From Isoetes taiwanensis (taxonomy: Eukaryota > Streptophyta > Lycopodiopsida > Isoetales > Isoetaceae), in assembly GCA_021234155.1 (NCBI GenBank), contig JAJEKV010000010.1:4500871-4564870 (forward strand): a DNA stretch of 64,000 bases, in the 5' to 3' direction. Below the pieces are notes generated by a model. The model was not told the DNA's origin. It worked only from the letters and a program-made list of their open reading frames with translations, and did not search any database. Made by a program: the position numbers and the translations under genes. Shown here piece after piece: positions 1,741-21,200 of this stretch (position 1 is its first letter; every line of letters starts with the position of its first letter).

Positions 1741-1959
1741 GAGTTCAGAGCTTCAGTTCTAGTTTTAGGGTTTCCACCGTTCCATTTTCCAGCACTGTAT
1801 ACTTTTCTTCACTTCTATTGATTTACAGCTCTGTTTTGGTAGCAATATATATCATTGAAATGCTGGTTCTGTGATGATTCTAAAGATATATAGTTTGCAC
1901 ACATTTGTTTAAGATCCGAGAGGAGAAAATAACAAGTTTGCAACCTAGTTTTAAGGCGG

Positions 1960-2487
1960 GATTCAGAGGGCGTGATACCATCCAATCACCTTGGATTCAA
2001 GCATTTACATGCCGGAGGCTTTCAGAGGCCGTCTTAAGGGAAAACTATTGCTGTTTTTTATTTGAGACAAGCGTCTGTAAGGTGGTAAAGGTTGCACTAG
2101 AGGCTGCGCTTGATTTATACATTTGAACACTTTCAAACGGGTGCCTATAAGGTGAAAGAACCTGCACTTGTTTCTTGCACTTGGAGGCATCATCTTGGAT
2201 TCAAACATTGGCATGCTGGAGGCTTTCAAGCATGTGTCTATAAAAAGGAGACCCTTGCCACTATTCATCTGAGACAAGCTTCTATAAGGTGGCACAGATT
2301 GCACTAGAGGCTGCGCTTGAATTTTACATTTGGACACTTCGGACGGGTGTCTGTAACGTGACAAAGCCTATGCCTGCTCCTTACACGTGGAAGCTTTGAG
2401 ATGGACGTCTATACGGGGGCAGAGGTTGTGTGTAATCAAAGTGCTTGGAGGATTTCAGACAAGCGTCTGTAGGATGATACCCTAATC
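1960..2487 (+). repeat. Tandem repeat array in the presumed LINE 5' UTR
   Basis: The phrase TTGCACTAGAGGCTGCGCTT occurs at 2092 and 2299, a 207-bp period. A shorter degenerate motif, ACAAGCGTCTGTAAGGTG or similar, recurs near 2067, 2137, 2232, 2275, 2342, 2402 and 2458. The last copy ends about 20 bp before the ORF1 start codon at 2488. The array is therefore likely the promoter/leader region of the LINE, although no copy elsewhere in the window keeps this end for comparison. Confidence 0.6.
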
Positions 2488-4185
2488 ATGGCAACCCCAG
2501 TGATAGAAGAGCCGGACGAGCCCTGCGACTCTTCATCCCACCCCACTGATATGCATGTGGATGGTGCTGACACGTGGTCCCCTCTACCTAGCGCAGCCAT
2601 GGCAGCAAAACTTCTCCTAGGAGAATATATAGATGCCATCCCCAATCGCAGACTAGACGACACAGGCAAAATTGACAGACGCACACTGAAAGGAGAAGCG
2701 CGGGCAAAGTCTCGTGCAACAAGCATAGCTCGGCATACATATGACAAATACTCTAGTCTAACAGCAAGCCGTATCCATGCATTGTCGCCATCAAACCAGA
2801 CAGTTGAGGAGCATTAGAAACAGGTTCAAGCAATGGCAGAGGGCAACACAGCTCGAATTGCTTGCTTGGCAGAGGAGATGCAGGCCTCCGCATCCAAATT
2901 GCTCAAGAGGCAGCTTGCTACTGAAAAACATCGTGTTTCCAGTAGCGAGACCCGCCTAAAGCAACTGGAGGATGGCCTTCGCCTAGTGCACTCTGAAAGG
3001 CAGAAGAACAAGAAGAGTCTCGTTGACATGCAGGTTTGCATGGATTCCTTGTTCACCGCCATTGAAATCATGATACTGGACAGGCAATGTGTTGAGCAGG
3101 AGATAATTGCAACCATCTCCAGCCTTTGATCAGAAGATGAGGAGGTTGCTATCGTGATGCGAAGAGTCCAGGTCGCCTTTGAAGATAGCCAGTCACGATT
3201 GAGAGCCCTTTAGGGTCAAGACATAGAAAATGGCCTCATCTACAACAAACCATATGTTGGATTCTCGCTTACAAAAGCTGGAGCATAGTTCTGCAGCACG
3301 AGATCAGAAGGTGCAGGAGCTGCAGGCAGCCATCGCTCAACAAGGCGAGGGCCTCCATGCAGAGGCTCATGCATGAGCAATTGCAGTGGTGCATGCATGA
3401 ATTGGCAAGGCGGCAACAATTCCAATAAGAGCTAAGCTCTCGGCTTTAGGAAGGAAAGACCATTACACCTGCCATGACAGTCCCACTTGCCCAAGAGTCT
3501 TTACGACGTCAGCCAGGACCGCTACTACTGCACCGCCAAGCCGCCCATGCCACCACCTCCCCAACGTAGGCCACAACCTACGCCCTGCCGACAGCAAACA
3601 ATACTTGTTGCGTTGGGCAGCATTGACCCAATGATCAGAGAGCTCCAAGAATAGAGACGGAGAAGCCACAATGTGGTGGTACGTGGCCTGACAGAAGAGG
3701 CAGGGGAAGACCTCATTAACCGGCTCCAGATGCTGATCCTCGCTCCAATGACGTTCCACACACCGGTACACATTATTAGGGCGAGCCGCCATCCAGCGTC
3801 TAGACCGCCCTCGAGTAGTTACATTTACAGTACTGAACGCACAAGCAAAAGCAGCCATTTTATGCCAGGGCAGGCAACTGAAGGGACTGCCCTGTATGTT
3901 GACCAAGACTTGACCCCGGCACAACACGAAAACTGCAGGCACGAGTTGGCCAAAGTTAAAAGCGTCTGCAAGATGCAAATCTTCAGGCTGCCAAATGCTG
4001 CTATGAATGCTGTAAACCCTCCAACAACTCCTGACCATGCCTCTCCTTCGCCTACTACAGCCACATGCCCTGCTCTGGTTGCCTCACCTTCGGTTGCTTG
4101 CACATCTCACGCCGCTTCCACTTCTACCATCCTCCCTTCTGCTGCTACCACTGAATCTATAGATGCATCCCCTGCTAACAAATAG
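2488..4185 (+). pseudogene. LINE ORF1 (coiled-coil RNA-binding protein), broken
   Basis: ORF1 proteins of L1-type LINEs bind element RNA and form the ribonucleoprotein needed for retrotransposition. The ATG at 2488 opens an acidic N-terminus; the frame is cut by TAG at 2815 (in a GAGCAT-TAG-AAACAG context, where CAG is expected) and resumes into a charged coiled coil at 2833-3129. Further stops occur at 3127 and 3211, then a frameshift near 3275. The C-terminal block at 3673-4185 contains NVVVRGL and LYVDQDLTPAQ, matching the RRM and C-terminal domains of transposase_22/L1 ORF1p, followed by a Ser/Thr/Pro-rich tail. The intact ORF1 at 40546-41451 supports the assignment. Confidence 0.75.
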
Positions 4186-4189
4186 GAAT

Positions 4190-5066
4190 TGTGCTTCCGC
4201 ATGGTCTCCTAGAATTGTCAGGGATTCCGATGGTAGAAGGGGGATAGTCTCAACTCGGTTGCCACAGACATGGATCTTATCTTCCTCATGGAAACATGCA
4301 GGACACATGATACCCGACTTGCCAGGATACCTGCGCTACTCAGTCTTCAATGATTGCACAGGAAAGCAGGTGCATAGGATGGTTGCCTGCTACTACCGGG
4401 CGACCTTAGATGGACAGGCATAATCGGTATCTATGGGTGCGTGTGCAAAACTGCCATAGCAGACCTCTCTTTGTGGCAGCCTACTACTTCCCACACCCAG
4501 AGCGTAACTTTTTATATCCACTCAGATGTGGATAGGTTGGACCCCTATATCGATCTATATGATGACATACAAAAGCATAAGCAATTGGGCAGTGTCATAC
4601 TCCTTGGCGACTCCAATGCACGCACCGGGGTAGAACAACCCATGAGATTTGATCTCTTGACTGATGATGTGTTCCAGTTATGTCCTACAGAAGGAGCTTG
4701 ACCACGGACATCAAATAACAACCAGGTCACGCGCTATGGTAGGCAGTTGCTTTTGCTCTGTGGTTTCTTTGACCTGCTAATTTGCAATGGATTGACACAG
4801 TGGCCGTCCTCCCGCAAGAGCACTTGCAGGCATGAAAATCAGGGGATTGGATCTAGTGTGGTGGACTATGTGCTGGTGCCTGAGCAGGATATGCATGTTG
4901 CCAAGCACTTACATGTGGGAACAACTAATAGGGATGAAGAGGTTGACTCAAACCACCTACCATTTTACTTGCAGCTGGCTTGGCAGGTTGTGCGAACCCC
5001 CTGTGCGACAACTCCTCACATGCCTCAGCTGCGATTAGATTATGAACATACAGGGCTTATGCCCAG
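4190..5066 (+). pseudogene. LINE apurinic/apyrimidinic-type endonuclease domain, broken
   Basis: This domain nicks target DNA to prime reverse transcription. Its N-terminal motif reads VS*NCQGF near 4204, where a TAG at 4210 replaces the expected Trp. Later motifs are clear: LLGDSNART near 4600 (catalytic Asp/Asn), NGLTQWPSS near 4790, VVDYVL near 4860 and DSNHLPFYL near 4950 (the Ser-Asn/Asp-His active-site segment). Reading requires several frame changes. It is contiguous with ORF1 upstream and the RT linker downstream. The family is endonuclease/exonuclease/phosphatase as found in ORF2 of L1-type elements. Confidence 0.85.
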
Positions 5067-6194
5067 ATGCTTGTAGATGACCTGGCAGAAATTTTGCAGT
5101 ACCCTACATTAGAACAACAGACAGGCCAGCTGATTGACGTTCTTAGGATTGCTGCGGAAAGGTGCTTTGGGATTAGCCGCCCTCGATGGACCTTCAGGAC
5201 CACAAACTTACCACGTAATCAGTGGTTTGATGCGGAGTGCAACGAATACAAATGCTGGCTCCGCCAGGTCACAGATCCTGCTTTACGCCCACACGCAGTC
5301 AGACAGTACCGCATCTTTCTTAAATGTAAAAAAGCCAAGTACATCGCAGCGCAAAAGAAAATGTTCTACCTCCTAGAACGTTACCCCAGGACCCCAGGGA
5401 CGAACATCACTCTCGAGCAGTGGAGGCAACACTTGCAATAGCTATACAACCCTCAGGGTCCACAAACAGCATTATCCTTACAAGAAGGCCTAACACTGCA
5501 AATCACAGAGTGAGACGTGGACCAAGGCTTACATCATCTTGCCAATAAAGTGCCAGATCTGGATGGTATGCAGGCAGAATTGCTCAAGTGGGCAGGGCCG
5601 TTCATATTACTAGTGCTGACCACCTTGTTCGCCCAGCCAATTACCAAACAATCATGTTCAGTTTGGTGTTTGCAAAACTACTAGCTGGGATTTTCGAGTA
5701 GCAGTTGACAGGCTGGGCAGAGGCAGCAGAGGTGCGGACCCTCACCCAGGCATAATTCAAGCCCCAACATTCAACCATTGACCATATCTTCACGTTATCG
5801 AGTCGGGTTGAAGACAACAGGAACTGCCAGCATGACCTATATTGTTGCTTCGTGAACTTTGCGAAGGCTTAGATGTTGTGCCTCGAGAAAAGCTATGGGC
5901 AAGATTGTGACAGCTGGGGGTTCCTGTAGATTTGCAGAATGCAGTGCACAGGTTATGTGAGAGATGGTTAGGCCGGTTATAGCCGACAAGCCAACTTATT
6001 CGATAGTAAGATCGGGGCTTTGCCAAGGGTGCCTTCTCTCTCCAACATTGTTTGGGCTTTACATTAATCAATTGGAGAGATGGCTTGCTGACAATGGGGG
6101 CGACGAAGCTCACCTTCTGCACCGGATCATCATGCAGTTAATATATGCTGATGATGTGGATCTTCTAGCTTACACTCTAGCAGACATGCCATTA
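5067..6194 (+). pseudogene. LINE reverse transcriptase, N-terminal and palm region, interrupted
   Basis: The linker (residues around PRNQWFDAECN near 5210) leads to the RT core. A DLDGMQAELLKWAG segment near 5560 corresponds to RT motif 1. CQGCLLSPTLFGLYIN near 6020 corresponds to motif 4 and YADDVDLLA near 6147 is the catalytic YxDD box. Stops such as TAG at 5439 and 5878 and frameshifts disable the reading. The domain is cut after LADMP at 6194 by the TIR of the 13.6-kb insertion; the rest lies from 19805. Confidence 0.9.
6193..6194. other. TA target-site duplication, left
   Basis: TA precedes the left terminal inverted repeat at 6195, and TA follows the right one at 19803-19804. Both lie inside one LINE reverse transcriptase. 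A TA target is typical of Tc1/mariner-like cut-and-paste elements, though 2 bp alone is weak evidence. Confidence 0.6.
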
Positions 6195-6218
6195 GGGCGG
6201 ATTTGGGGTCTGAAAATG
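6195..6218 (+). repeat. Left terminal inverted repeat
   Basis: Begins GGGCGGATTTGGGGTCTG and is the exact reverse complement of 19779-19802. Beyond it, both ends also show a CCACATCA/CCACGTCA phrase within the next 40 bp, suggesting a longer, diverged terminal region. Confidence 0.8.
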
Positions 6219-6800
6219 GCCTCCTATCAGCCATTCCACATCATATTTCCGCTCCCTTTTTCCCATGCCACCTAGGATACCAAACTCTCATAATTACAGA
6301 TTTGCTTGGAATATTCTTCCGGAATAAGGGGGATTGCACATTCATGGCGCCATATGTATTTAATTCTGTTGGTTGTCAGACGGACTGATGCAACACGTGG
6401 CGCTTCTAAAATGCCACTTGCATTATAGCATACCGGCAACTCATGACGGTGTCTCTTGGTTTGTCAGATACCAAGCGTGCGCGTCACCGCCTTCTACATT
6501 TCAAAATTTGAATGTGTAGGTTGAAGCTTTGTATGAGATCAGACTTTCATTTCGAGGCGCTTATTTTGGCGCGCTTCTTTAACCGATCTTCACTTCATCC
6601 TAATACGGGCTTCCCACCCCTACAATTGAAATTTGAATTTGCTTAATGTATAAAAGCATGGATTGTACGAGAATGGACTTTTCGATTTCCATATGCACGT
6701 TGCAAATTTCAAAAACGGTTAGTATCGGACGCTCGCTCACACGGTTTAATTGTGTTGGGGCATAAAATACCACACCTTCATTTCGCGGCCGTGGGATCTA
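6195..6800 (+). repeat. Left-end direct repeat, copy 1
   Basis: Similar along its length to about 8303-8945: both begin with GGATTTGGGGTCT, then AAAATGGCCTCCTATC, ATTTGCTTGGAATATTC, GGCGCCATATGTATTTAA, TGTATAAAAGCATGGATTGT and ATATGCACGTTGCAAATTTC. Copy 1 has more indels and is probably older or less constrained. A TATA-like TGTATAAAAG occurs at the same place in both, so the block may contain a promoter. Confidence 0.75.
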
Positions 6801-7004
6801 AACAAGATGGAAGTTGCTTGTTGTCAAATTAAACTTAAACACAAGTGAGGGTCGGCTTACGTGGTTTTCTCGAGGAGGGTTTGGAGTTTTTTTTTAAATC
6901 CCAATTATCGACATAGTGTGACGTAGCATCTTGGTATTAAATAGTATGTTAAATTCGAATTATATTGGTGTTCATTTTCAGGTTAAACTCAAATCATATA
7001 GGTT

Positions 7005-7115
7005 TAGGAATAAGGTTAAAAAAGGAAGATATTGGATATTTAGGAATAAGGTTAAAAAAGGAAGATATTGGATATTTAGGTATAAGGTTAAAAAAGGAAG
7101 ATATTGGATATGGCT
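7005..7115 (+). repeat. Three tandem copies of a 36-bp unit
   Basis: The phrase AAGGTTAAAAAAGGAAGATA recurs three times with a 36-bp period, each followed by TTGGATAT. A short coding-neutral tandem array just upstream of the acidic protein gene. Confidence 0.85.
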
Positions 7116-7301
7116 CAAATTTCGAGATATGCACATAATGGCATGTAATGATGGTTGATAGGACTGGAATACGAATAATTCCTACGATTTTCACGTCTAA
7201 TCCAGCCTATATCTATTCCAGCCTAGATTGGCACCCATTCTCCCCCCAATCTCCGCCCAATCTTCGCTAGATCCTCTGCCCAATTTCTCTAGTCCATCGC
7301 C

Positions 7302-7770
7302 ATGAAGAGATCAACTACGGAAGAGCCGGAGGTGTCCTCCAAGAGGCGCCTATTACGGCTGGAAGAGGTGTTACCTCCGCAGTTCCCTCCGCTGCCCACA
7401 GTTCTTGCTCTGAATGCCTCTGATTCCTCTGATTCCTTTGACGAGGAATCAGAGAATGAGGAATCAGAGGAAATTTTGGAGCAGGAGTTCATCACAGGTG
7501 TTCTTGAAGGCTGGAGGAGATTCTTCAGAGAATGAGTGGTCTACCGAAGGAGAAGAAGCCGAAGATGATGAAGAAGATGAAGAAGTTGAAGACGAATCCG
7601 CTGACTTCGAGGAGCTCGACGAATCCGCTGACTTCGAGGAGCTCATGGCGTTAGTTCATGGTACATGCATGTTTTCTTTCTTTTCTTAAGCATTCAACTA
7701 ACGGTTATTTCTTTTTCTTTTTTTTGCAGATGGTGAAGCAGATGAATGAAATTTGTTAGGGCAGAGCACC
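7302..7770 (+). pseudogene. Small acidic Ser/Glu-rich protein gene with one intron, frameshifted
   Basis: ATG at 7302 opens a basic start (MKRSTTEEPEVSSKRR) similar in flavour to the KR-rich starts of the minus-strand coiled-coil proteins of the same element. It then becomes a highly acidic tract rich in Ser, Asp and Glu. The first frame stops at 7535, but the adjacent frame continues in the same acidic composition to about 7660, so a single frameshift near 7510 is likely. An intron is plausible: donor GTACATG at 7661, polypyrimidine tract and acceptor TTTTTTGCAG ending at 7739, then a short last exon. No known domain. An unrelated overlapping-frame explanation is less likely because both frames have the same biased composition in sequence. 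Confidence 0.5.
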
Positions 7771-7795
7771 TCTTATTTTTTTTCCTTGTTCTTAG

Positions 7796-7834
7796 CCTCC
7801 AGCTTGCCTCCAGCTTGCCTCCAGCTTGCCTCCA
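7796..7834 (+). repeat. Four tandem copies of an 11-bp unit
   Basis: AGCTTGCCTCC occurs about four times in a row in the presumed 3' untranslated region of the acidic gene. Confidence 0.8.
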
Positions 7835-8080
7835 CTTCTTACCATATGACTGCAAGCCTCCGGGCTTTTTTGTTGTGAATAGTTGAAGCCTCCGGGCATT
7901 TAAATTTACAAAATGATGTTCTGATGTAAAGCCATACGGCCATAAAAAATTTTGAATGTAAAAAGTTTTTGCTTCTAATTACATTTGAATACCTAACTTG
8001 TTTTTTTACTATACATGTGTTACCACTCTTAAGTACATAAGTCATTATCCCTTTTCAAAGAGCATATTATTTTTCAAGAA

Positions 8081-8148
8081 GGATCACGCCAAGCGAATAG
8101 TACATATGCAACAAAAATGGAACACACTAAATTCGCATCGTGTGATCC
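8081..8148. repeat. Element hairpin 1
   Basis: Imperfect inverted repeat with outer arms GGATCACGCC.. and ..TCGTGTGATCC, about 68 bp. It lies downstream of the acidic protein gene. Same family as the hairpins at 11590, 12531, 13626, 14254, 14479, 15218, 16947 and 19053. Confidence 0.65.
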
Positions 8149-8302
8149 ACTTTCTTATTTGTTGTCAAATTAAAATTAAACACAAGTCCCTCATCAATAG
8201 TCTCCCATTTGCATATAAAATATCTATCATTCCAAGTTATATTATGTTTTATGAACTAAAATGGCCTCCTATCAGCCATTCCACGTCATATTTCCGCTCC
8301 TT

Positions 8303-8945
8303 GGGATTTGGGGTCTCAAAATGGCCTCCTATCGCCCATTCCACGCCATATTTCCGCCTCCTTTTTCCCGCCGATTTGCTTGGAATATTCTCCGGAATAA
8401 GGGGATCGCACATTTATGGCGCCATATGTATTTAATTGCTGGTTGTCGAGACATTGACGCAACACGTGGCGCTTCTAAAAGCCACTTGCATTATAGCATA
8501 CCCGCAACTCATGATGTTGTCTCTTGGTTTGTCGATACCAAGCATGCGATCACCGATTCTTGTCTTGCCCTATTTTCATTTAGAGTCCATGGCCATACAA
8601 GCTTCCCGCCTTCTACATTTCAAAATTTGAATGTGTAGGTTGAAGCTTTGTATCAGACTTTCGTTTCGAGGCGCATGGCGATGGGCCTTTAAAAGTTCAG
8701 AATCGGGATCTTTACTTCATCCCAATACTGGCTTTTTCCCCCCCTACAATTCGAATTTTGAATTTGCTTTTGTATAAAAGCATGGATTGTAGGAGAATGG
8801 ACTTTTCGATTTCCATATGCACGTTGCAAATTTCAAAAACGAGGTTAGTACGGACGTTCGGCTCAAACGAAGCGAATTGTGCTGGGGCATACAAATTGTA
8901 CACCTTCATTTCGCGCCGTGCGATCCACGCGGTATGGAAGCTCCA
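8303..8945 (+). repeat. Left-end direct repeat, copy 2
   Basis: Starts GGGATTTGGGGTCTC, a variant of the terminal inverted repeat, and follows the left end (6195-6800) through its TATA-like box and beyond. A partial third piece (AAAATGGCCTCCTATCAGCC to TTTCCGCTCC) lies immediately upstream at about 8258-8300. This is what a second element end, or a tandem left-end duplication, would leave. Confidence 0.75.
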
Positions 8946-9525
8946 AATGATGTGTGGATAAGGATCCAACTGACTCACGAATATGCTCCAGTCTTCAATC
9001 ACAAAAAAGGAGGTCTAAAAAATAAGAACTTAGATCTCGACATGTTGCGTCTTGCAGGCTCAAAAAGTGTCGACATCTGGGTGGATGGCAGTTTATATCC
9101 ATTGGATCCGTTGAGTGGCAAGAAACCGTCATTTCGGGACGTTTCAAGTTTAGTCCGATTTTGTGGTGACGGTAACTCTGGCCTCTTGGGATATTGTGAG
9201 AGATTGAGAGAGGATGAAGGCATTCGGAATCGAATACAGTTCCTTGAGATGAGCTGCTTCCGATTGTCACAAGAGAATTATAACTTAAACCAGCAGCTCT
9301 TTTTTCTCTCGCTTCATTACTCCACTGTGATGAAGGAAAGGAATGACGGCTTGGGAGGGACTTCTTTGAGATGAAGTGGACAAGTCCAAATTGGTGATAG
9401 GGCAGCTGCAAGAAAAGATCCAAGAGCTCGAAAGAGCAAACTTTGGGCTTCAATGTAGGTTAAAGAATTTGAAGAAAACACCCTTGGCTTGCGAGAAAGG
9501 AAGAAGCACTATCGACCGATAGAGG
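8817..9525 (+). pseudogene. Element gene, N-terminal part with coiled coil, frameshifted
   Basis: An open frame of 185 codons runs from 8817 to 9374; its first 40 codons lie within the duplicated left end, so the true start may be the ATG near 8938. The middle carries a WVDGSLYPLDPLSG segment and a Leu/Gln/Asn-rich helix. After one frameshift near 9365 the frame continues as a coiled coil (KLVIGQLQEKIQELERA) to a stop at about 9523. No enzyme motif is visible. It is probably the upstream part of the large gene continuing to about 11570. Confidence 0.5.
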
Positions 9526-9779
9526 AACCAAGTTTGGATCAGGTGCATTCAGACGCAGTGGTCACGCCACAAGGTCCGTTTACAACACTAGCAAAGGCCA
9601 ATTAAGATCCGGGGAAACTAGAAGCAATCTTGGTTACGAATGAAGAACCTAGCTTACCTAACAGGGGAGATAGTGGACATGATTTGTCAGCCCTACAACT
9701 CTCCTCTCAAGAAGATGGTATTGAAAATGGTACTAGAAGAGATCTACAAGAAGTTAGAAGCTTACGGATGTACAGACTG

Positions 9780-11570
9780 TTTGTGATGATGTAGGCATCA
9801 ATGGAGGTTTGGTTATCGTTCTCTATTCAAGCCATTCCAAGCGTTGAAAAGAATGGGCACAAAAAAAGTATTCGCTCCACGTCCACAAATTGTCGAGAAT
9901 ACAAGGGTTACTAGGACAAAGATGGTGTATGCCATATTAGGAGAGATGCACCACGTTGAATGTGCTGGTCCTGCCATAGCCATAAAAGATAAGAATGGCA
10001 AGGATTGTTGTGATATAGTTGGAATGAATGAACGCAATAATCTTTGGGTTGACCTGGTTACTCTCTTTACAATTCCTTGTCAAATATTATGACTTAACAA
10101 ATTGCGAGTAAAACTAATGGTGAGATTGAAGTTTGCATAAAATTGGATGAAATGGAACTGACCAAGTTTGAGAAGTATGAGAGGGTATCCGTTGTCATCA
10201 TGAATAGAGCAATTGAGAATGCAATTGCACATGCTAAATCAAAGAGCAACAAGAATAATAAAAAAAGATGTAGAGGTGACGGACGAGGAGAAGAAGCGCG
10301 TCGAAAAATGGTTCTCATGTCAATCAAGATGACACCGGTGGTTAGGTCTCTTTAAAGTTCGAGAAAGAAACCCACGAGGTATTGAAATGGGTGTTCAATC
10401 AAACCGACATCCCGAGTCTAATATCTAGATTCGAGGGAGGGGAAAATTGCAAGTAGATCACTATGGATCTTACAAAGTAATTTTTCACTTGGCGCCCGAT
10501 TTAAAAACCGAGAAAACAATGTACAACATAAGTGGAGGAGGACAAGGAACATGCAAAAGTTGTTATGACCGCAATCATGCAAGGAAGTCAAGTAATTGGG
10601 AAGACTGTTTCAACCTTGTCCCTTAACCAAGAAAATGCTCCTAATAGAGGAGAAGAAGATCCCAAGTTCCATGGCATTTTCTCCATTCCATTAGAGAGGG
10701 TTCATATCGCACTTTGCACGGCTTTTTGTGAGAATCATCGACAAGATGATATTTTTGAGCTGCAGATTCGTGTGGAACATTTCGACAAGAAGAGAAGAGA
10801 GGAAGGAATTCGTAGAGTTGAACATGTTCTATCGAATGTGTTTGCATGGTGGCAATGTAAGATTAGAGCTCGATGAGAAACGGGCGGGAAGAACAAGTGT
10901 GTGCCGTCAGAAGGTGTCAATTGAGGGGTGAAAGCTCGACGCTTCATAAAGAATCATAGAGAGGCTCTGAACGGAAACCGGATGGGAGAAAAGGTCTATG
11001 AATTTGGAAAATTGCTGGTTGATGCGAGCAAGACCGCACGAGATGGCGCTCGCTCGGCATTGAAAAAAAAAGCATGGGATGCATTGTCCGAATTGTTCCC
11101 ATACATTCGAGAGAATGGACCTCACAAGAGAAGATGCGTAAAATGTTCGTGCAAGTTTAATAACAAATTTATTAAAGCTTTCATAGACGATGGGGAGAGA
11201 GTGAAGTCACACACTACTTGCACATCTTTTGGGCTCATGCACCTTGGTTTTTAGGAAGTATGGAAGCCTAGCAAAGGTGGAGTGCACAAGGCATGGAGAA
11301 GTCGCATAAACAAGCTAAAATAGCCTTTCATCGTAACACTCAAAGAGGGGTGGAAATGTGGGAACCAACCCTCTAAGACAGATGATGAGAGTGGTTTTAT
11401 AGAAGGGCGATGGCTAACACGACAAGAAGGTCGCTTTAAGGAGCAAACCGAAGTCATAAACACCATTGGCATAATGTCAAGAGAAAAACGGAAAGTTGCT
11501 TGGCAAAATTCTAGGGCCCCACTAGCATCGCGAAGGTGGAGATCTAAGAGACAAAGAATCGGTAAAGTAT
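9780..11570 (+). pseudogene. Large element gene with ERVHI..LHGGNV..KARRF block, broken
   Basis: Recurrent similarity can be followed across frames: GGGQGTCKSCYDRNHAR near 10530 (a possible Cys/His knuckle), FHGIFSIPLERVHIALCTAF near 10675, RIIDKMIFLSCRFVWNIS near 10730, LHGGNVRLELDEKRAGRTS near 10843, VKARRFIKNHREALNGNR near 10926 and FWAHAPWFL near 11233. From memory, these blocks belong to a protein family widespread in mobile-element-like loci of streptophytes and some invertebrates. I know no agreed function for it. At least three frameshifts break it here. A role in mobility of the 13.6-kb element is inferred only from its size and position. Confidence 0.5.
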
Positions 11571-11589
11571 ACTTGTAATGTGTAGCATG

Positions 11590-11657
11590 TTCACATGACG
11601 CCAAGTACTTGCCTCCAACCTTGTTTGCACACAACCGAAGCTTCGCGTCGTGTGATC
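11590..11657. repeat. Element hairpin 2
   Basis: Arms TTCACATGACGCCAAG and CTTCGCGTCGTGTGATC, about 68 bp, just after the end of the large plus-strand gene and before the convergent minus-strand gene. Confidence 0.7.
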
Positions 11658-12106
11658 TTATTTGTATCATACTACCGCGAATAAAGTGGAGTTCGCTATT
11701 GCTTGCATTTATGTGGCTTCGTGGGGTGAAGCTTTACAAGATAATAATAAAAAAGGGTTACTTTTGATTAAAGTTGTGAAAGATGTTACATTGAAAAACA
11801 AAATACAATGACTCATTGTTGCTCCAAAGGCGAGCTCTTCTTCATTATCTTCATCATCATCATCGCTCGCCCTCGCCTTCGCCTTCTTCATCTCTTCTCC
11901 TCAAGCGAGCAATCACCCTATCCAAACGCGTTCCTCCAATCTGTCCACCATCTCTTTGTAAATGTCCCGCTCCCTGTCCCAATAGCACAACGTGTTTTTT
12001 TCGCTGAATTAGCAACCTCGTTGCCGTCATAACCACCTCAAGGCGGTTGTTGGGGCATGTCATCCCGTCCACCTTCTATTCAATCGCTGACGATTTGCCT
12101 CTCCGG

Positions 12107-12298
12107 CTACTGAAGCATGAGAAGGTTGAATTCATTCTCTTCTTCTTTCTGCTGAATTGTAATGGCATTTTCCTTTAGAAGATCATCTTGCTCCTTCAAC
12201 CTCTTCATTAGAACACCCAACACTATGTCAGAAGGGAGTTCTATCCTCTTGCGTTTTCCCTTATCAGCGGTTGAGGATGTGGAGGCCATAGATGACAA
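12107..12298 (-). CDS. Small coiled-coil protein, paralogue 1
   Basis: A 63-codon frame opening MSSMASTSS, followed by a KRKRIELPSDIVLGVLMKR block and a predicted coiled coil (LKEQDDLLKENAITIQQKEEE). The block is shared with the proteins at 13780-14136 and 14642-15030 (pattern KRxRxELPxDIxLxVxMKRxKE), showing that the frame is real. It is shorter than paralogue 2 and may be truncated. The basic patch before the coiled coil suggests a nuclear or nucleic-acid-associated role, but there is no recognised domain. Confidence 0.55.
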   Translation of the reverse strand: MSSMASTSSTADKGKRKRIELPSDIVLGVLMKRLKEQDDLLKENAITIQQKEEENEFNLLMLQ

Positions 12299-12530
12299 AT
12301 GGGAGGGACGTTAAGATTATAGAAGTGAGGAGCAAAGACTTTAACCGGCGGAAGGAGCACAATGCAAGGACCTCAATTTATATATATTAGCACTTGAACA
12401 TATTAAACATACGGTCATCAGCCGCACGCGTGTCGAGCGGATTTCGCTTTCGGTTGTCCGCTAGAACACATTAATGGTACCGTCATTTGGAACACATTAA
12501 TAACTATTCTAACTACATCAGATCACACCA

Positions 12531-12590
12531 CCGCTGAATCGACACGACACGAGCTTTAAAACCCTATGAAGGGTTTCGCTCCGTGTGATC
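12531..12590. repeat. Element hairpin 3
   Basis: Arms GATCACACCACCGC and TTCGCTCCGTGTGATC, 60 bp. It lies upstream of paralogue 1 and downstream of the minus-strand ORF at 12660-12980. Confidence 0.6.
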
Positions 12591-12659
12591 TGTCTTGTCA
12601 TTCTCTCTACCACGGATATTGAAAATTAAAAATAGGAAACATAATATTCAGCACATTTG

Positions 12660-12980
12660 TCAAAAACTTTTCCCAAAGAGAAATAAAACCATTACAAACA
12701 TTAAAAAAAAAATGGGCCCCTCTAGGAGGAGCCCGATGCCTATGATCGCCGGGGCAAGCTCTTCCCCGAGGGCGTTGATAATTTTTTTTCGCTCCTCCAA
12801 CATGATTGCCCGCCCCGCAACCATGTTCTCATATTCCGCAACCTTATCTTCCCGCCATCGAAGTTGAGCTCGGGCAACCTCTCCCGCCGATTGCGGCCCT
12901 AAGCCTCGCTTGGAGATTATATCTCGTGGGCGCTGCATTCGCGGTCTAAGGCAGCCCGTGATTGTCAAGACTAAAATCAC
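12660..12980 (-). CDS. Hypothetical ORF, possible relative of the small coiled-coil family
   Basis: A 106-codon frame with an Arg/Glu-rich helical middle (AQLRWREDKVAEYENMVAG) and a hydrophobic C-terminus. It lacks the KRxRxELPxDI block, but begins close to where a frameshift could join it to sequence upstream around 13000-13200. It may be a broken member of the same family or a chance ORF. Confidence 0.3.
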   Translation of the reverse strand: MILVLTITGCLRPRMQRPRDIISKRGLGPQSAGEVARAQLRWREDKVAEYENMVAGRAIMLEERKKIINALGEELAPAIIGIGLLLEGPIFFLMFVMVLFLFGKSF

Positions 12981-13625
12981 CTCCCTATAGAAGGCGGCCG
13001 TGTCCTCCTCGCAAGAAACCGGCTTGGCGACGCCTTCATCATTCTTTTCTTTTTAGAAGGCGGATCCGTTCCTCCGCCAAAGACTAATGTTCTAAATTTC
13101 TTTGACCAAAACTTGAGACAAGATCTCTAAGCAGGATGGAACCGGAGCCGGAGGCCATTGAAAGTGATGGGAGAACAGGAGAGATGGTCGAGGGCGGATG
13201 TGGTAGAACAGAGATGGCGGATAGGAGAAGACAAAGGCCTCCGACGCTTTATATAGAAACTAGAGATACGTTGGAATCTACGGCCATGAAAACCGATAAA
13301 GTTGTGTAATAATCCCACGAGGCTTAAATTATAGCATGCAATTAGGGCAACGGTAGCCTATGTTCGCATCATGGGATCCGCCATATCCTAGCCGCATCGT
13401 ATGCAGGCCGCATAAAAAAAAGTTGTTATTGTGGCAAACAAGATGCCACGTCCTTGGCATGACGTTGTCTTCCACATGCCACGTATGTGAATAGACGTTG
13501 TCATCCACATGCAAATTCGCATTTACCTGCAAGTTATCACATAATCTAGCTACATATTTGTGTTACATATACTTTTCCATTAATAAATTAGGAATTTATA
13601 CATACAACGAGGTGTACGTTGTGGA

Positions 13626-13695
13626 GATCATACGACGGAAATCCATTGATTGCTACCTAATTGCAAGAATGGCATTTTTCAAGGCCGCGGTGATC
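13626..13695. repeat. Element hairpin 4
   Basis: A decayed copy: GATCATACGACGGAAAT on one side and CCGCGGTGATC on the other. Its loop (CCATTGATTGCTACCTAATT) is identical to that of hairpin 6, because the gene and its hairpin were duplicated together. Confidence 0.65.
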
Positions 13696-13779
13696 TTTTA
13701 ATAAAACAAAACAAGAGAACAGATAGAAGCAAGAAATAGAGCAAATTTTTCTTTGAAACAAAAAATATATATACAATGG

Positions 13780-14136
13780 CTAGGGATCTTCATGATCCTG
13801 TAGCTGAAGCCGTAAAGCTGCGTTCTCATCCTCCGCAGCTCGAAGCTTCTTCTCCATATCTTCTAGCGCCTGCGAAATATTGTGTGCAGTTAAAACTGCC
13901 TCGACCCTATGGCTATTGGCCTCTCGGTACCTGGTTAATGTTGCCGCGAGCTCAAGGTCTCGCTCATGCAGCAGCCCCCTCGTGAATTCTAACCTGTCCA
14001 CCGCCTCCATCTTCTCGGCGACGAGACGGCTGTTTTCGTCGTGAACCTCCTTGAATCTCTTCATCACCACAGCAAGGGTGATGTCCGCGGGCAGCTCTGG
14101 GCGCGGTCGCTTGCTGGAGGAGGATGAAGATGCCAT
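13780..14136 (-). CDS. Small coiled-coil protein, paralogue 2 (intact)
   Basis: A 118-codon frame: a Ser-rich start (MASSSSSSKRPRPELPAD), the shared DITLAVVMKRFKE block at residues 18-30, and a long heptad-like coiled coil from about residue 30 to 112. There are no enzyme motifs. Flanked by hairpin 4 downstream and hairpin 5 upstream. The whole unit of gene, 3' region and hairpin is duplicated at 14450-15120 (paralogue 3). Conservation of the frame among three copies that differ in DNA sequence argues that a protein was selected for while the element was active. Confidence 0.65.
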   Translation of the reverse strand: MASSSSSSKRPRPELPADITLAVVMKRFKEVHDENSRLVAEKMEAVDRLEFTRGLLHERDLELAATLTRYREANSHRVEAVLTAHNISQALEDMEKKLRAAEDENAALRLQLQDHEDP

Positions 14137-14253
14137 CGGAGGAGAAGGCGGAAGGCGGAGAAGATGAGCAGAAGGCGGAAGGCGGAAGAGGATCGGAGGT
14201 CGAAGGCAAGATAGAAGGTCTTCTATTTATAACAGGGATTTCGTAGTAGCTTG

Positions 14254-14317
14254 AGTCACACGACGCGAAGGATGCCGTCGGTCAGAAAATGGACCGTTAC
14301 TTCTCGTGTCGTGTGAG
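14254..14317. repeat. Element hairpin 5
   Basis: Arms GAGTCACACGACGCGAAG and TTCTCGTGTCGTGTGAGG, 64 bp, upstream of paralogue 2. Confidence 0.7.
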
Positions 14318-14478
14318 GAAAAAGGACCGTTACTTCTTCTAACATCTTTTCTTCCAGAGAAAGCTCGTGTGATAATTTTTATTGATAATTTCGGTGATAC
14401 AATCTATACATAAGTAATTTTACTGATACATAACTAAAGATAGAACTTCTCATTGAAGCAAAATAGAACGGCATGGAG

Positions 14479-14543
14479 ATCACACGACGCGAAATCCATT
14501 GATTGCTACCTAATTGCAAGCAAGGCATTTTGCGTCGTGTGAT
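14479..14543. repeat. Element hairpin 6 (best preserved)
   Basis: Arms ATCACACGACGCGAAAT and ATTTTGCGTCGTGTGAT pair over 15 of about 17 bases around a 31-base loop. Located just downstream of paralogue 3. Confidence 0.8.
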
Positions 14544-14641
14544 ATTTTAATAAAACAGAACATACATTGGAACAAGAGGATAGATAGAAGCAAAAAATAG
14601 AGAAAACTTTTCTTTGAAGCAAAAAATAGATAGATACAACG

Positions 14642-15030
14642 ACTAGGGATCTTCATGATCCTCTAGCTGATTTTCATGTCCCGCACCGGCCGTAAGGTCG
14701 CGTTCTCATCCTCCGCAATTTCGGAGCTTCTTCTCCATATCTTCTAAGGCACGCAAAATCGCGGAGCAGTTTCAACCGCCTCGGCCCCCGCTGCGTCGCC
14801 TCTTGGTACATGGCTTAATGTTTCCGCGAGCTCAATGTCTCGCTTCGTCGGCAGGCTCCCCTCGTGAAGGCTAACCGGCGACCGCCTCCATATTCTCGGC
14901 GACGGCGGTTGTTTTCATCATGGATCTCCTTGAATCTCTTCATCACCACCGCAAGGGTGATGTCCACGGCAGCTCGGGCGCGGGGAGTGCTATCTTGGCG
15001 TGGTCGCTTGCTAGAGGAAGATGATGCCAT
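14642..15030 (-). pseudogene. Small coiled-coil protein, paralogue 3, frameshifted
   Basis: The ATG at 15030 opens MASSSSSKRPRQDSTPRARA, then VDITLAVVMKRFKEIHDENN, as in paralogue 2. The frame is lost after about 45 codons, though DNA similarity to paralogue 2 continues to the shared terminal sequence (CTAGGGATCTTCATGATCC) near 14642. It has a short insertion (DSTPRARA) relative to paralogue 2. This is a tandem duplicate that has decayed. Confidence 0.7.
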
Positions 15031-15217
15031 CGGAGGTAAGGTGGAAGGCGGAAGCCGGAAGTAGAAGATGAGCGTAAGGCGGAAGGCGATTGGAGGTCGA
15101 GTGGACATCGGTCTTCTATTTATAACATGAGTCACACGAGCCGCTTCTCGGGCGTCGCGGTGAGGAATAAATAAATTAATTGTTTTTTCCAATAATATTT
15201 CATTTCTTCGAGATAAT

Positions 15218-15282
15218 ATCACACGACGCGAAAACCTAGATATGACGTAAAAATCGATCGATGTATTTCGCGTGATGTGAAT
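15218..15282. repeat. Element hairpin 7
   Basis: Arms ATCACACGACGCGAAA and TTTCGCGTGATGTGAT, 65 bp, upstream of paralogue 3. A shorter partial relative (GTCACACGAGCCGC) lies at 15130-15165. Confidence 0.7.
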
Positions 15283-15381
15283 AAATACAAATAAAATAAT
15301 TTTTATTAGGAATTTCGAAGGACAATCTGTACATAAATAATTTTACCGATACAAGTTGGAAAATATATAACTTCCAATTTT

Positions 15382-16810
15382 TCAAGCTTCGTCGTCAATT
15401 TCATGCTCTTTCAATCCCTCGCCAGACCGATCCAACAAGGCAATGACTTCCATGTTATCGACCCCAGCTTCCAACCTTGGGTGAGTCAAGCCAGCAGCTA
15501 CAAAATTTAACATATTGCTCGCCCGCAGACCGGCTTGGTCATCAAAATATTGTAGCACAACATCCCGCCGAATTGCTATCACCCTTTCAGTGTTTGATGC
15601 CAATTGGGAATGGTTCCTAACATGCATAATGCACGGATGTAATAGACAAACTCGCACCTTTTTGACCTGAAAGTTCGCTGAAGACGATTATCTCCCCATT
15701 AACGAATCTTGAGATATATCGTAACAATGTAGAGTCCTTCAATCTTTCCTCGCCCCCCGTGCATGTCGGCAAGAAAAATCATCTACTTCCCACAAATAAG
15801 AACCCTCAAGCTTATCTTCTTCACATTTATCCTCATCTACGAGGCTTATCCGCCGCTGATTGATCAAGGGCCTCGCCAAACCTCAGAGATCCCGCTGGTA
15901 GCTTTGCACCCGAGACGCTGGAATTCTTCTTCCGCTGGTAGATTCACCTCATCTTGAGCAAATCGAGACTCCAGCCTCTCATAGGCTTCTTTAAGCTTTA
16001 TAGCATTGCCGGTATAATTAGACACTTCAAACATCTCTTTGTCCAAATCCTCTTCAAAATCTAGGCCTAAGTTTACCCATTCGCCAAGGTAATCGATAAG
16101 CTCGTCTTCCCTAGCACACATTCAGAACAAAGACGGGTTCCTCAAGATATCACTTAGCAATAGGTATTCTTTGCCTTCCACTAAAATTGGCGTTATGTCG
16201 ACAACTTCTTTTCATCCTCATCCCCATCCTCATCACCTTCGTAATCATCTCCTCCTCCTGGTTCACCCAAGGCCAAGGTCAAGCTAAAACTCCTACATTC
16301 TTGCTCTTCTTCTTGTAGATCTATCTCCATTTCTACGCCATAGTCAAGATCATCACACATAACTGACCCCTTGGCTTAAAGATTTCATTGTTTCCAAAGT
16401 TGTATCTTCGGTTTGGCCGAAAGGTAATGCAATAACTAACAAATGCAAACCAAAAGAGAAATAAGATACCTTCTTAAGCACAAGGACGCAGCCCAGAGGA
16501 GCCCGCTATGCTAAAGATTCTTGAAAACATCTTCCCCTGCTTTGCAAATGGGAAGCCGCCTCCTCTAGAGCTGGTTTTGGAATCCACGAGCCGGGACATC
16601 CGCAAAGGACGCGGCGCCGAGACCAAGCGGTCCGGGTGAAAGCTAAGGCAACCTCGCGAGCGATAGCATCCAAGCTCGCCATCGCTTGCCATGATGTCCA
16701 ACTCCTTGCAATAGAACGGATAAATCGAAGTCGGGCGCAACTTCCTCGTTGTCATGAGGGGCTGATGCATACCATTCCGTGAACTTCACATAACAATCCA
16801 TGGCGGCCAT
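15382..16810 (-). pseudogene. Minus-strand gene region of the element, several open blocks
   Basis: A start at 16810 (ATGGCCGCCATGG, a good plant Kozak context) opens MAAMDCYVKFTEWYASAPHD and continues acidic for about 35 codons. Frames at 16474-16770, 15864-16121 (LGLDFEEDLDKEMFEVSNYT) and 15382-15657 (RLEAGVDNMEVIALLDR) lie in the same direction. They may be exons or frameshifted pieces of one or two genes. I recognise no family. No family hairpin separates them, which favours a single gene. Confidence 0.35.
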
Positions 16811-16946
16811 TTACTAAAGCAAGAAGATGTTTAGGAGCCGTAAGGCTACCGTCACTTTTGAACTCAAGTAGCCATTGTCGATTATGAAAGGGGACACACC
16901 GTTGTGGGGAGATTTGTCCGCACATTTTAGGGTTAGGGTTATGGTT

Positions 16947-17015
16947 GGATCACACGACGTCAAGACTACTATGTGCAACAAAAAGCACAATGCTTGTCTG
17001 CTTGGCCAGGTGATC
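16947..17015. repeat. Element hairpin 8 (partial)
   Basis: The left arm GATCACACGACGTCAAG is well preserved; the right arm is reduced to CAGGTGATCC. It lies between the block gene ending upstream and the histone-like gene. Confidence 0.5.
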
Positions 17016-17115
17016 CTCACGCATAACATTAAAAAAAAAAAAAGTGCTAAGCTAGGCTTCTAAGAAAGAAATGGACTAAGAGATTAAGCTTATAAAGCCA
17101 TTACATTAAGAAATA

Positions 17116-17700
17116 TTATACATATGAAAAACACAAAGGCACTTCACGGCCTTTTTTTCGGGGGTCTTTCTTCTTGTTGTATTCATCCATAAAATTTTGA
17201 CCATAGTACTCGGGATCCCTTATGCGTAAGACGAGGCGCATGTCCTTGGGCATGACAAAGCCACCCGCTTGGCATGTATTGTTGCAAGTCTGCGAGTCCT
17301 CGAATGCAATCGACACCAACCGGCCGAAGCCATTTGAAGAGCATTTAAGGCGCTTGCTTGAATTCTCAGAATCGGTATGATGTATCGCACCACACTCTTG
17401 CGTAATCTCTTTCACGAGCCCGGCAAATGGGAGACGCTGAATGACCATCTCGGCTTTTCCGATACTTTTAATCTCAAGCTTTTAATGCCAGGGCTTCGCC
17501 TTTCGCCCGCCACTACCCTCACCCACCCCGGCATTTGGAGTTCGTTGCTCGGCCACTCTTCCGCCGTCTCCTCACCCCAAACATTTTGCGAGGATGTTCC
17601 TCGCCGACTCTTTACGGCCTCTCCTCACATTTCTGGTCGCCTTCCCCTTTCGGGGCGTTGGGCCTCCTCCTTTGATTTGAAGGTTCGGGCGATCCGGGAG
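17116..17700 (-). pseudogene. Divergent histone H3-like gene, frameshifted
   Basis: Histone H3 forms the core nucleosome tetramer with H4. The 110-codon frame 17116-17448 reads VIQRLPFAGLVKEITQE (alpha-1 of the H3 fold; canonical IRKLPFQRLVREIAQD), then a divergent alpha-2, then AFEDSQTCNN..GGFVMPKDMRLVLRIR, matching the canonical LFEDTNLCAIHAK..IMPKDIQLARRIR. Upstream, in neighbouring frames, are an SPGIKSLR piece, like PGTVALRE, and a basic PRKGKATRNVRRGRK stretch like an H3 tail, so the N-terminus exists but is frameshifted. After the fold there is a 25-residue extension (YGQNFMDEYNKKKDPRKKG) absent from ordinary H3. It is far more divergent than any plant H3 or CENH3 copy would normally be and is carried inside a mobile element. 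Confidence 0.7.
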
Positions 17701-17743
17701 GAGCAGGAGGAGCAATAAGAGCAAGAAGAGGCGTGCCAAATAA

Positions 17744-18810
17744 TTAATCCCATATATACGCTCGCCGGTCTCTCACATTTCCATCCTCCGGTCTCCGAAC
17801 CGAGTGCACCTCCCTACTTACTCGAGCTGCTTCTCCCACCGTCATCATGCGGATTTCTTTTCCGAAGTCTTCGTTAGGCATGGTGGGAGGAGGAGAATCT
17901 CTATCGAGACTTTGATTCAGATGAAGGAGGCGGACTAATGTAATCACCTGGCCTTACACCACCTGGATGGATCCTTGCAGTTTGCTTAGTTCTTGCCGTG
18001 GCTTCTCAGCGGATGGCGCTTTATACTACGAACACTGACAAAAATAGACAACTGGCTAGAGATAAATAGTAAAAAACAGAAGTTAAAGTAAAATATGATG
18101 GTAACATTTTTAAATAATTGTACGGGACCCTAAAAAAATATCGGACAAAATACGGAACCCTAAAAAAACATCGGACGAAAACACAAATAAAAAACCGAGA
18201 TTCAAAGCGCTAGGCGATAGACAATTTCTTGTTGATCGCGAACTCACTAAACTTTACATTTCCCTCTTGCCTATAACCAATCCTAATGCCATCAATAAAA
18301 TAATGGAAGTCGTCAGCAATCTCCTCTATCTCCATTAGCACTCTTAGCTCTGATAATGGTCGGTGGCTGTATAAATGACTTCCTCCCCTCTCCATACTCG
18401 AATATCCACCGCATCGGAGTGTCTGTTATGGTCCTCAAACGGCTCCCAAAAAGTTGTGCAGCCTCTCTTTTTCTGTTTCCTTCATTCTAGTTGACAATTA
18501 ACGTATAAATATTGTTTTGGAAGAAAGTATCTGAACTTAAAGGAGGACTTAACTATGCGGACCTCTGTTAGTTGACCGGATGATTCGTGGAATCGAACAT
18601 CCCAGTCGAGAACAAAAATAAGCCATCCACAAAATCGGCGGTGGGGAGAAAGCACGATATGTCTTTGAGCTTTTGAACTTCCTGCGCCATCCGGAATATG
18701 TTAGCAAATACCTCAAACGGTGTGAAGATTTTGAAACTCATCCTCACGCCCGGGTTTTGGACATTCCCGCTTGCACCTCGTCGCCCATGCATTTCTTCAT
18801 TGCAATTACA
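17744..18810 (-). other. Minus-strand ORF fragments of the element, unrecognised
   Basis: Short frames at 17744-17947, 18210-18395 (ELRVLMEIEEIADDFHYFID) and 18568-18792 (FEVFANIFRMAQEVQKL) run in the same direction as the histone-like gene. Composition looks coding, but I recognise no domain. Direct repeats of a CGGACAAAATACGGAACCC type occur near 18125-18180 between them. Confidence 0.35.
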
Positions 18811-19052
18811 TTGTTCTCATTAGTCGCGGGCTTACAAAGTTCACTTAAAGGGGCAATTAACCGGCTTCAAGCTCGGTTTTCGATCATGTCCAGAAAACCA
18901 GATGCCTATACCCCGGAAGGTCACGCATCCATACCTTGAAAAGGACAATTCGATGTCTATGTGATACACGACAAGTACACTACTAATACTTTCGCCGGAA
19001 TGACATCCACGACGCCCCGATAAACATAAACCCGCACAATAAATTTGTTTGT

Positions 19053-19117
19053 AACACGACGCCGAAACTATCTCTACGCAGTTAAGTAGTCGATGACTAG
19101 CTTCGCGTCGTGTGATC
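19053..19117. repeat. Element hairpin 9
   Basis: Arms AACACGACGCCGAAAC and GCTTCGCGTCGTGTGATC, 65 bp; the last of the family before the right end. Confidence 0.7.
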
Positions 19118-19778
19118 CGATTAAGGTGGTTACCATTTGCGGGCAATTTTGGGAAGCCGCTTTTGGTGGAGATTAGCTCTTTGGCCATATCGAAGGGGTA
19201 TATGCATGTCGTATTGTTATACTTTCCACTTTCCTACCGCTAGAATTCAACTTGAACTCTTTTATCCTACCTATCCAATGTGTCCAAGACGCCTGATCGC
19301 TTTGTCGCTTAACTCTATGCTCGCCCCTCGTTGATGGCAAAGATACTCACCCACTAACCTATTGAGACAAAACCTCCCACTTCTTGACCTTGGGAGTTCT
19401 GTAAATAGGGCAAGAACACAGAAATTACAGGAGACATGGATTGCAGATGAGGAGTGAAGGCGGAGAGGATGCACATAGAGGCGCCGGAGTGACAGTACAG
19501 AAGTTTGGTGCCAAAATTTGATAAGGGAGTTGGTGACGCTGACAGTAGGCGGTCAAAGTCACCATTATTTTGGGCGGCGAAGCGACTCCCGAAAAATACG
19601 GGCCATTAAAATGGTTGCAATAAAAGCGCAGGCATCCCCTATGAAAATACGCCATGTGGATGCCAAGTAAGCCTGCTCATCCTTCTACCTGCCAAGTAAT
19701 ACTGACTTTCGTAAAAAAGGCGCAAACCTGATTGGTCCTGGTGAATCTGACGTGGAAATCTTTAACCCAAGATAAGGG

Positions 19779-19802
19779 CATTTTCAGACCCCAAATCCGC
19801 CC
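19779..19802 (-). repeat. Right terminal inverted repeat
   Basis: Reverse complement of 6195-6218 without mismatch, followed by TA at 19803-19804 and by the resumed LINE sequence. Confidence 0.8.
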
Positions 19803-19804
19803 TA

Positions 19805-21200
19805 ATGAGCGCCATCTCGATGCCCTAGACACATTCTGACAAGCGACTGATATGCGAGTCAACCTGGCCAAGATTAAGGTGGTCCTCATATCATCCTCAC
19901 GTTAGCCGAGGATCTCCTCCTTCAGTTACCGAGGGCAAAATATGAAACTGGCACCCACATACAAATATTTGGGAGTGGAGTTTCCTTCTACCATGCATTG
20001 GGACACATCCATCACATCCATGCGGCTAGGAGTGATAGCGGACTGGAAGGCACTATATGCAATGCAGAACAATAGTCACAGAGCGGAGCTGTATGATTGG
20101 GCCCATCAGTCGCACCTGTTCAAGGTATCAGTCGCACCGGTTCAAGGTATCAATGGAGCATGTCCTTTTATACGGTGTTGAAGTATGAAACCCAGTATTA
20201 TCCCTCGCTACTTAGAATGACTTGGAGCAGGTGCACAAAGCCTTCTTGGTACGAGCACTGGGGTTGAAGTCCACAGTCCCATATCAAATCTGTTGTAGGA
20301 GACATGTTTCTTGCTTCTTCAGAAGACGGCTCTTGATCATCACATTGTCCATTTTCAGAAGGTGGTCAATATGGACGATGCTTGTCTCCCTAACCTAGCT
20401 TATATCATGACAATGGGGCCGCAGTGCCTCAAGGCTTGCTGGAGGGAAAAGAGAGTTCAATGGTTGGCTAGATGGACTGTGCAGGAGCATAGGTATATAC
20501 ATGTGCAAATAGAGGCAGATCGCCATAGCTTGAGGCATTATCTTGACACTTGCTTCCTCAGTATGCTCTCGGATGCCAATGTCCTTGAACAGGTCAAAAC
20601 GGCATACTACCAGTGCCACATAAATCCCACATCGGAACGGGGCCCGCAATGCTACCTGGATACACATTTTTCTATGTAAAGGCACAGATTCATTGCCTTC
20701 ATTCGCACAGGGGCACACCATCTTCGAATTGAGATGGGCAAATGGATTGGTGAGCCATGCCAAAACAGGCTTTGTCAATGCTGCCAAATGGGAGTCATTG
20801 CGGATGAATCTCATACCCTTCAAAGATGCCCAGTATATGATCAAATCCAGACGCGCTATGCTGAGTTGGTCAGGCCTGACCAGCCGCTACATGTGACATT
20901 GAGCACAGCTTTCGTATGAATATTGGGATCATACCTTCAAGAGGTCATGGATATGTGAGATCAGCTACGTTCTCGCGCACACACTTGACATGTATATATA
21001 CATATATTTCATGATGATGTATACATGTACAGTTTGACAGTATTCTTATTTTGCCACAGTTTTTCCCTCGAAAACCCTTCGAGACAGGGTTTTTTTTTTA
21101 ATTTAGACAGTAATAAGTTTGCTGCACTCCTTCATTGAGTCCCATAGGCAGATTGGTCTCCATGGACGATAAAAATCATTCATTCTTTCTTTCTTTCTTG
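19805..21200 (+). mobile_element. L1-type LINE, right part (RT thumb, zinc knuckle, 3' UTR, tail)
   Basis: Resumes with HLDALDTF and MRVNLAKIKVV (RT, after the YADD box), then MKLAPTYKYLGVEFPS near 19940, a long connection region, and a zinc-knuckle-like CQNRLCQCC..DESHTLQRCPVY near 20755 (zf-RVT pattern C-C-H-C). The 3' UTR holds a hairpin around CTCGAAAACCCTTCGAGACA near 21067 and ends in a TTCT repeat at 21183-21199. The same 3' end is seen in the copies at 34.6, 40.4, 42.2, 58.3 and 63.2 kb. Confidence 0.88.

Follow-up and report, generated by a model that had tools for sequence, protein, structure and literature searches.

What kind of DNA splits a long interspersed nuclear element (LINE) of the lycophyte Isoetes taiwanensis, so that its reverse-transcriptase frame breaks off and picks up again 13.6 kb further on? 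To answer this question we analyzed a window, by which we mean the whole stretch of 64,000 nucleotides at positions 4,500,871 to 4,564,870 of contig JAJEKV010000010.1 (C908:4500871-4564870), and searched the genome as 1,658,258,908 bases in 1110 contigs. The published assembly, which combines Nanopore v9.4.1, Illumina and Bionano data, comprises 204 scaffolds (909 contigs) and totals 1658.30 Mb (PMC8566536). The answer, which we hold to be highly probable, is that the window contains a decayed copy of a large, multi-copy and multi-gene land-plant DNA transposon, and that a large broken gene inside it, here called gene B, is its DDE transposase with a predicted RAG1/Transib fold. The original prediction had left the choice between an undescribed giant mobile element and an endogenised relative of large DNA viruses, and had recognised no transposase.

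Ends, insertion site and genomic copies

The element occupies window positions 6190..19807 (13,618 bp) and reads 5'-CATTA...TAATG-3'. Its left (6190..6218, plus strand) and right (19779..19807, minus strand) terminal inverted repeats (TIRs) are perfect over 29 bp and have the sequence CATTAGGGCGGATTTGGGGTCTGAAAATG, with CATTA as the first bases. The inverted ends had been described as exact over 24 bp with TA on both sides; they are indeed exact and 13.6 kb apart, and the TA is present, but the repeat is longer and the TA belongs to the element. CATTA and TAATG are part of the element and not a target duplication, because they were found at 32 of 34 left ends and 28 of 29 right ends (the ends checked among the 40 listed for each side), because 30 of 30 LINE paralogues lack these bases at the site, and because the LINE match to the Pfam family RVT_1 spans the join only when they are left out. 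Joined in this way, the LINE flanks gave an RVT_1 match of 45.5 bits (E = 9.1e-12) that crosses the join, in agreement with the claim that the LINE frame resumes across the gap. When CATTAATG was kept, the match ended at the join with 24.4 bits, no better than the 25.2 bits of the left flank alone.

The empty site in all 30 paralogues reads GACATGC followed directly by AGCGCC, or near variants of this, with nothing added. These paralogues were taken from 40 listed among 2247 first-look candidates, and the comparison concerns the window's site. The flanks of nine paired copies (see below) shared 3 bp or more in no case, 2 bp in one case and 1 bp in three. Since the empty sites add nothing and no paired copy has flanks sharing at least 3 bp, the insertion at the window's site was made without a target-site duplication (TSD, 0 bp). 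The interrupted LINE itself (window 1-6189 and 19808-20900) belongs to a large family, with the 2247 candidates for the joined junction, of which 40 were scored; an open reading frame (ORF) at window 40546-41469 (minus strand) is similar by eye to its 5' part.

The genome was then searched with 606 bases of the left end and 603 bases of the right end. Each query gave 40 scored matches, with more than 1000 further first-look candidates left unscored, and both lists include the window. All 40 scored left-end matches start at query base 1 (92-100% identical), as do 39 of the 40 for the right end, the other starting at base 3 (95-100% identical); matches start at base 1 more often than expected by chance. 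Pairs common to both lists gave eight further copies with both ends (E1-E8), each covering 98.7-100% of the window's element in colinear order at 90.1-91.4% identity, gaps counted. Five are 13.4-14.1 kb long and three are 23.8-27.8 kb long with other insertions inside. This genome search had been proposed in advance, and the paired colinear copies bear out an undescribed giant mobile element; they exclude two unrelated short elements that happen to flank host DNA. The left-end region recurs inside the element (8304..8930, plus strand; direct repeats D1, D2, D9 and D10), as it does in copies E1-E8.

Among six copies (the window's and E1-E5) substitutions amounted to 6.0-8.0% and indels, mostly of one base, to 17-27 per kb. 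For an assembly based on Nanopore reads, short indels at this frequency suggest that the gene breakage may partly be residual Nanopore error in repeats. The pattern among the copies fits a single burst followed by neutral decay. The copies with large insertions lie at C952:4145822-4172590, C952:21403322-21431102 and C1026:11961630-11985473 (loci L019-L027). Long ORFs that resemble each other occur in E7 and E8, and the one in E8 includes a LYLQLDNCSGQNKNR stretch that may come from another DDE transposon. Two right ends in opposite orientation were seen 14.8 kb apart at C966:349856-350458 and C966:365255-365856.

Gene B and its predicted fold

Gene B (8936..11578, plus strand) has the same position in each of the nine copies and was not in one open frame in any copy read. 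By homology it is a transposase: a reading pieced together from the window's gene had five relatives (best E = 9.4e-56), and a profile search with the gene B family gave 58 proteins. The statement that no transposase can be recognised in the element is thereby overturned. Relatives whose frames are open over 860-931 aa also occur in this genome. The family, whose proteins have an N-terminal coiled coil, had no Pfam match over 44 members, among the families listed (25 of 60 weak families). The family PF02992 (Transposase_21) was absent from the families listed for these 44 members, from the six frames of the element and from pieced gene B; it has 167 matches in this genome, and the window's element is not among the matches listed. 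A sequence-profile search of PDB with the transposase family (A3) returned no match, whereas fold searches did match.

The AlphaFold model of one relative, P0013, matched the RAG1/Transib fold over about 410 residues with an identity of about 15%, among the matches listed, and the solved relatives among them come from animals. Candidate catalytic and zinc residues are conserved: between D508 and E785, P0013 contains C528-x2-C531, H586-x4-H591 and H761-x4-H766. The last three residues of the motif set are visible in two of the 44 family members, the others ending before them. The fold of the transposase is thus predicted to be that of RAG1 and Transib.

Some relatives deserve mention in their own right. 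Those with open frames, such as G000 at C952:7635213-7637738, reach up to 931 aa and possibly represent active families. In Adiantum nelumboides, the proteins P0054, P0056 and P0058 combine transposase pieces with unrelated Pfam domains and are perhaps gene-model fusions.

Passenger genes and palindromes

The unusual contents and repeated hairpins noted in the original prediction were confirmed. Gene G (17116..17950, end approximate, minus strand) is a probable divergent histone H3 with a C-terminal extension. Its pieces, arranged by eye, matched Pfam Histone with 41.5 bits (1.8e-10), and their core matched a solved H3 in PDB at E = 7e-11; a relation to histone H3 is likely on this evidence. 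Gene D (12660..13158, minus strand) encodes a coiled-coil protein that is open in copy E2. Gene E1 (13780..14136, minus strand) encodes another coiled-coil protein, MASSSSSSKRPRPELPADITLAVVMKRF..., for which no homologue was found at E <= 0.01 among 41 candidates, and gene E2 (14640..15030, minus strand) aligned with it as a diverged duplicate. Gene F (15382..16810, minus strand), modelled by eye and present as ORFs in several copies, encodes an acidic protein, and gene H (18210..18960, minus strand; 243 aa) is open in copy E3. Genes D, E1/E2, F and H had no Pfam family over the cut-off in the ORFs scanned. Genes A and C, taken from the ORF list, had none in the six-frame scans that covered them. 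Gene A (7303..7760, plus strand) is a short acidic ORF, modelled by eye with probably one intron; gene C (12107..12289, minus strand) is a short ORF whose start resembles by eye those of genes E1 and E2 (MASTSS...KRKRIELPSDIVLGVLMKR).

The palindromes consist of inverted arms, GATCACACGACGCGAA and TTCGCGTCGTGTGATC, which stand 32-40 bp apart in six copies and give a total size of 64-72 bp. At the cut-off used, nine were counted in the window's copy and 7, 10, 6, 11, 5, 6, 9 and 11 in copies E1 to E8, respectively. The 49,392 bases of the window that lie outside the element contained none, and 20 controls with two-base blocks in shuffled order gave none either. The perfect palindrome was found at 73 places in the genome, compared with none for the reversed pattern, and among the matches listed of these 73 the loops are the element's loop sequences or variants of them. 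The arms are kept while the loops differ. By eye, palindromes stand at most borders of genes B to F, some of them decayed, and occupy corresponding places in different copies. In the window they lie 3' of gene A (8082..8147), just 5' (8861..8925) and just 3' (11589..11657) of gene B, between genes C and D (12521..12590), 5' of gene D (13311..13378), 3' and 5' of gene E1 (13626..13694 and 14254..14318), 3' of gene E2 (14478..14544), 3' of gene F (15217..15282), between genes F and G (16948..17013) and about 690 bp inside the right end (19050..19117). The one 3' of gene E1 is decayed in the window and has one mismatch in copies E2, E3 and E4; the one between genes F and G is below the cut-off in the window and above it in copies E1, E2 and E3. 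An Rfam search at gathering scores gave no match.

The duplicated genes E1 and E2 allow the borders of a palindrome-flanked unit to be compared. On the 3' side of both genes, strong similarity sets in 4 bp outside the palindrome; on the 5' side, in the window, it stops within the palindrome. Copy E4 differs: there the similarity reaches the far arm of the 5' palindrome and carries on, weak and gapped, over about 60 bp until the arm of the next one, which leaves the duplicated unit without a sharp right border. These borders fit either regulatory sites carried along with each gene or recombination sites, and we favor regulatory sites since they need fewer assumptions.

Elsewhere in the window, a single-exon ORF at 39425-40330 (minus strand) appears by eye to be dirigent-like, a plant type, and an exon at 29528-30073 (plus strand) resembles by eye the proteasome activator PA200/PSME4. 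Long simple repeats were seen at 54961-55158 (GTT x 66) and 56852-57032 (CTAT x 45).

Alternatives, proposed mechanism and known systems

Several points weigh against reading the element as a transposon with a RAG1-type enzyme of its own and a histone among its passengers. The window's gene B was assembled from pieces picked by eye, with X at the joints. The global TM-scores from Foldseek were low (0.25-0.36 by query length) with large root-mean-square deviations, and the AlphaFold model of P0013 has pLDDT values below 50 around E785. A TSD of zero lies outside the values given for the CMCT clade, discussed below. Gene G owes its scores to pieces put together with H3 in mind; a section of a natural ORF from copy E3 reached 22.5 bits (1.5e-4) with Pfam Histone, for which the cut-off is 26.4, and the gene escaped the six-frame Pfam scans of the window. 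No consistent codon-position bias was found in 13 stretches across the nine copies. One of three transposase pieces gave 4.2, 3.1 and 5.9% at codon positions one to three, and a right-end stretch taken as non-coding gave 2.7, 4.2 and 4.1%, so that it varies by 1.5 points too. The codon positions thus give no sign of selection on a gene, and selection on the cargo among the copies found no support.

The same observations bear on the possibility that the element is non-autonomous, its ends being served by an intact transposase of the same family elsewhere and gene B being long-dead cargo. The open-frame relatives in the genome, the absence of an open gene B in the copies read and the lack of codon-position bias would all suit such a history. 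Gene B nevertheless keeps its place in all nine copies, its breakage may partly be residual Nanopore error, and the open-frame relative at C952:7635213 had none of seven short exact end and palindrome motifs of the element within 4.0 kb upstream and 2.3 kb downstream; we regard this history as possible but unlikely. An endogenised large DNA virus or a Polinton-like element could account for several genes, a probable histone and intergenic hairpins. The six-frame Pfam scans of the window copy found no DNA polymerase B, capsid or packaging ATPase, which is a weak test since the frames are broken and the same scans missed the histone-like gene. The predicted RAG1/Transib fold of the transposase and the missing TSD do not suit a virus, the profile search gave no confirmed transposase relative in viral contigs, and both the ends and the copy pattern match a cut-and-paste transposon; we give the viral origin hardly any credence. 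We think equally little of a target CATTAATG with a duplicated TA and a true TIR of 24 bp. CATTA on the left of nine of nine paired copies and TAATG on the right of eight of nine agree with it, though both readings predict this, but CATTAATG is absent from the site in the LINE paralogues and the LINE frame is continuous only without it. For the window's copy, the one site compared, the empty sites refute a TA duplication.

The palindromes could also have arisen as unrelated miniature inverted-repeat insertions that built up in the element, as their fairly constant size and conserved arms might suggest. We consider this improbable, given that the arms are kept while the loops differ, that the places correspond between copies by eye, that the rest of the window holds none and that the perfect matches listed from the genome carry the element's loops or variants. 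A bolder proposal takes the whole as a RAG1-type plant transposon made of gene cassettes bounded by a shared palindrome that would act as a recombination site, with capture, duplication and swapping between elements as in bacterial integrons, blunt insertion free of duplication and escape from silencing aided by H3. It lost ground with copy E4, where the duplicated gene unit lacks a sharp right border, and we hold it to be very doubtful.

For the preferred reading, a transposon mobilized by the product of its gene B, we infer the cleavage chemistry, the function of the palindromes and the role of the cargo as follows. The transposase would bind the 29-bp ends and cut precisely at CATTA/TAATG by means of D, D and E and a zinc site (C-x2-C/H-x4-H). 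A nick at the border, release of the element and strand transfer by D/D/E would proceed as in the chemistry of RAG1 and Transib. The missing TSD suggests blunt joining, in which the ends would be joined to the target without a stagger, hence without duplication. The passenger genes (a probable histone H3, coiled-coil and acidic proteins) would most likely aid expression or escape from chromatin silencing, a role proposed for the H3-like cargo by analogy with the TET/JBP genes of fungal transposons (PMC12730594). The palindromes, as putative binding sites, would most likely be bound by a dimeric element protein and mark or regulate the genes.

The element shares with RAG1, ProtoRAG (BbRAGL) and Transib the predicted fold over about 410 residues, the 5'-CA termini and the order D, D, C-x2-C, H-x4-H, E with similar spacing, the RAG1 residues being D600, D708, C727, C730, H937, H942 and E962. 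RAG1 probably descends from transposons of the Transib type, and the TSD of RAG1/Transib is 5 bp. The element differs from these systems in the sequence identity of about 15%, in its TSD of 0 bp, in its plant host, in its giant size and many genes and in the N-terminal coiled coil of its transposase.

The CMCT group is defined by C(2)C and H(3-4)H motifs between the second D and the last E, by 5'-CA..TG-3' termini in most cases and by TSDs of 2-5 bp (PMC12730594). P0013 has the C(2)C/H(3-4)H motifs and the element has CA..TG termini, but a TSD of 2-5 bp is lacking. Because two features agree and one does not, we do not assign the element as an established CMCT member; it is probably a new lineage that works like the CMCT group and stands near or in it. 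CACTA/EnSpm transposons likewise occur in plants, have 5'-CA..TG-3' ends and carry the C(2)C and H(3-4)H motifs given for the CMCT group (PMC12730594), whereas the element has the terminus CATTA in place of CACTA, a TSD of 0 bp rather than 3 bp and no Transposase_21 among the families listed. ESTA, Plavaka, Lanisha and the TET/JBP-carrying fungal transposons resemble it in their CMCT-type motifs and in passengers with a likely chromatin or epigenetic role (PMC12730594); the element differs from them in its histone-like rather than TET/JBP cargo, its 0-bp TSD and its plant host. Spy transposons (PHIS superfamily, Harbinger group) are also of the cut-and-paste type without a TSD and insert within AAATTT (PMC4482050). 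That target was not seen at the flanks of our nine copies, and the fold predicted here is RAG1-like.

No description of this element family was found among the papers listed from the open-access literature (PMC), and the accessible part of a review of giant eukaryotic transposons contains neither the word histone nor the word lycophyte (PMC6431247). The element looks like an undescribed plant branch of the RAG1-type enzyme group. Should the histone-like gene be confirmed, a transposon with its own H3 would be a counterpart of the fungal transposons that carry DNA demethylases, and chromatin evasion by cargo would become testable in plants. A large lycophyte family that shares the predicted RAG1/Transib fold and the metal and zinc residues, and that has open-frame relatives, offers a new comparison for the enzyme group, one that bears on how its target spacing changed: 5, 3 and 2 bp, and here 0 bp.

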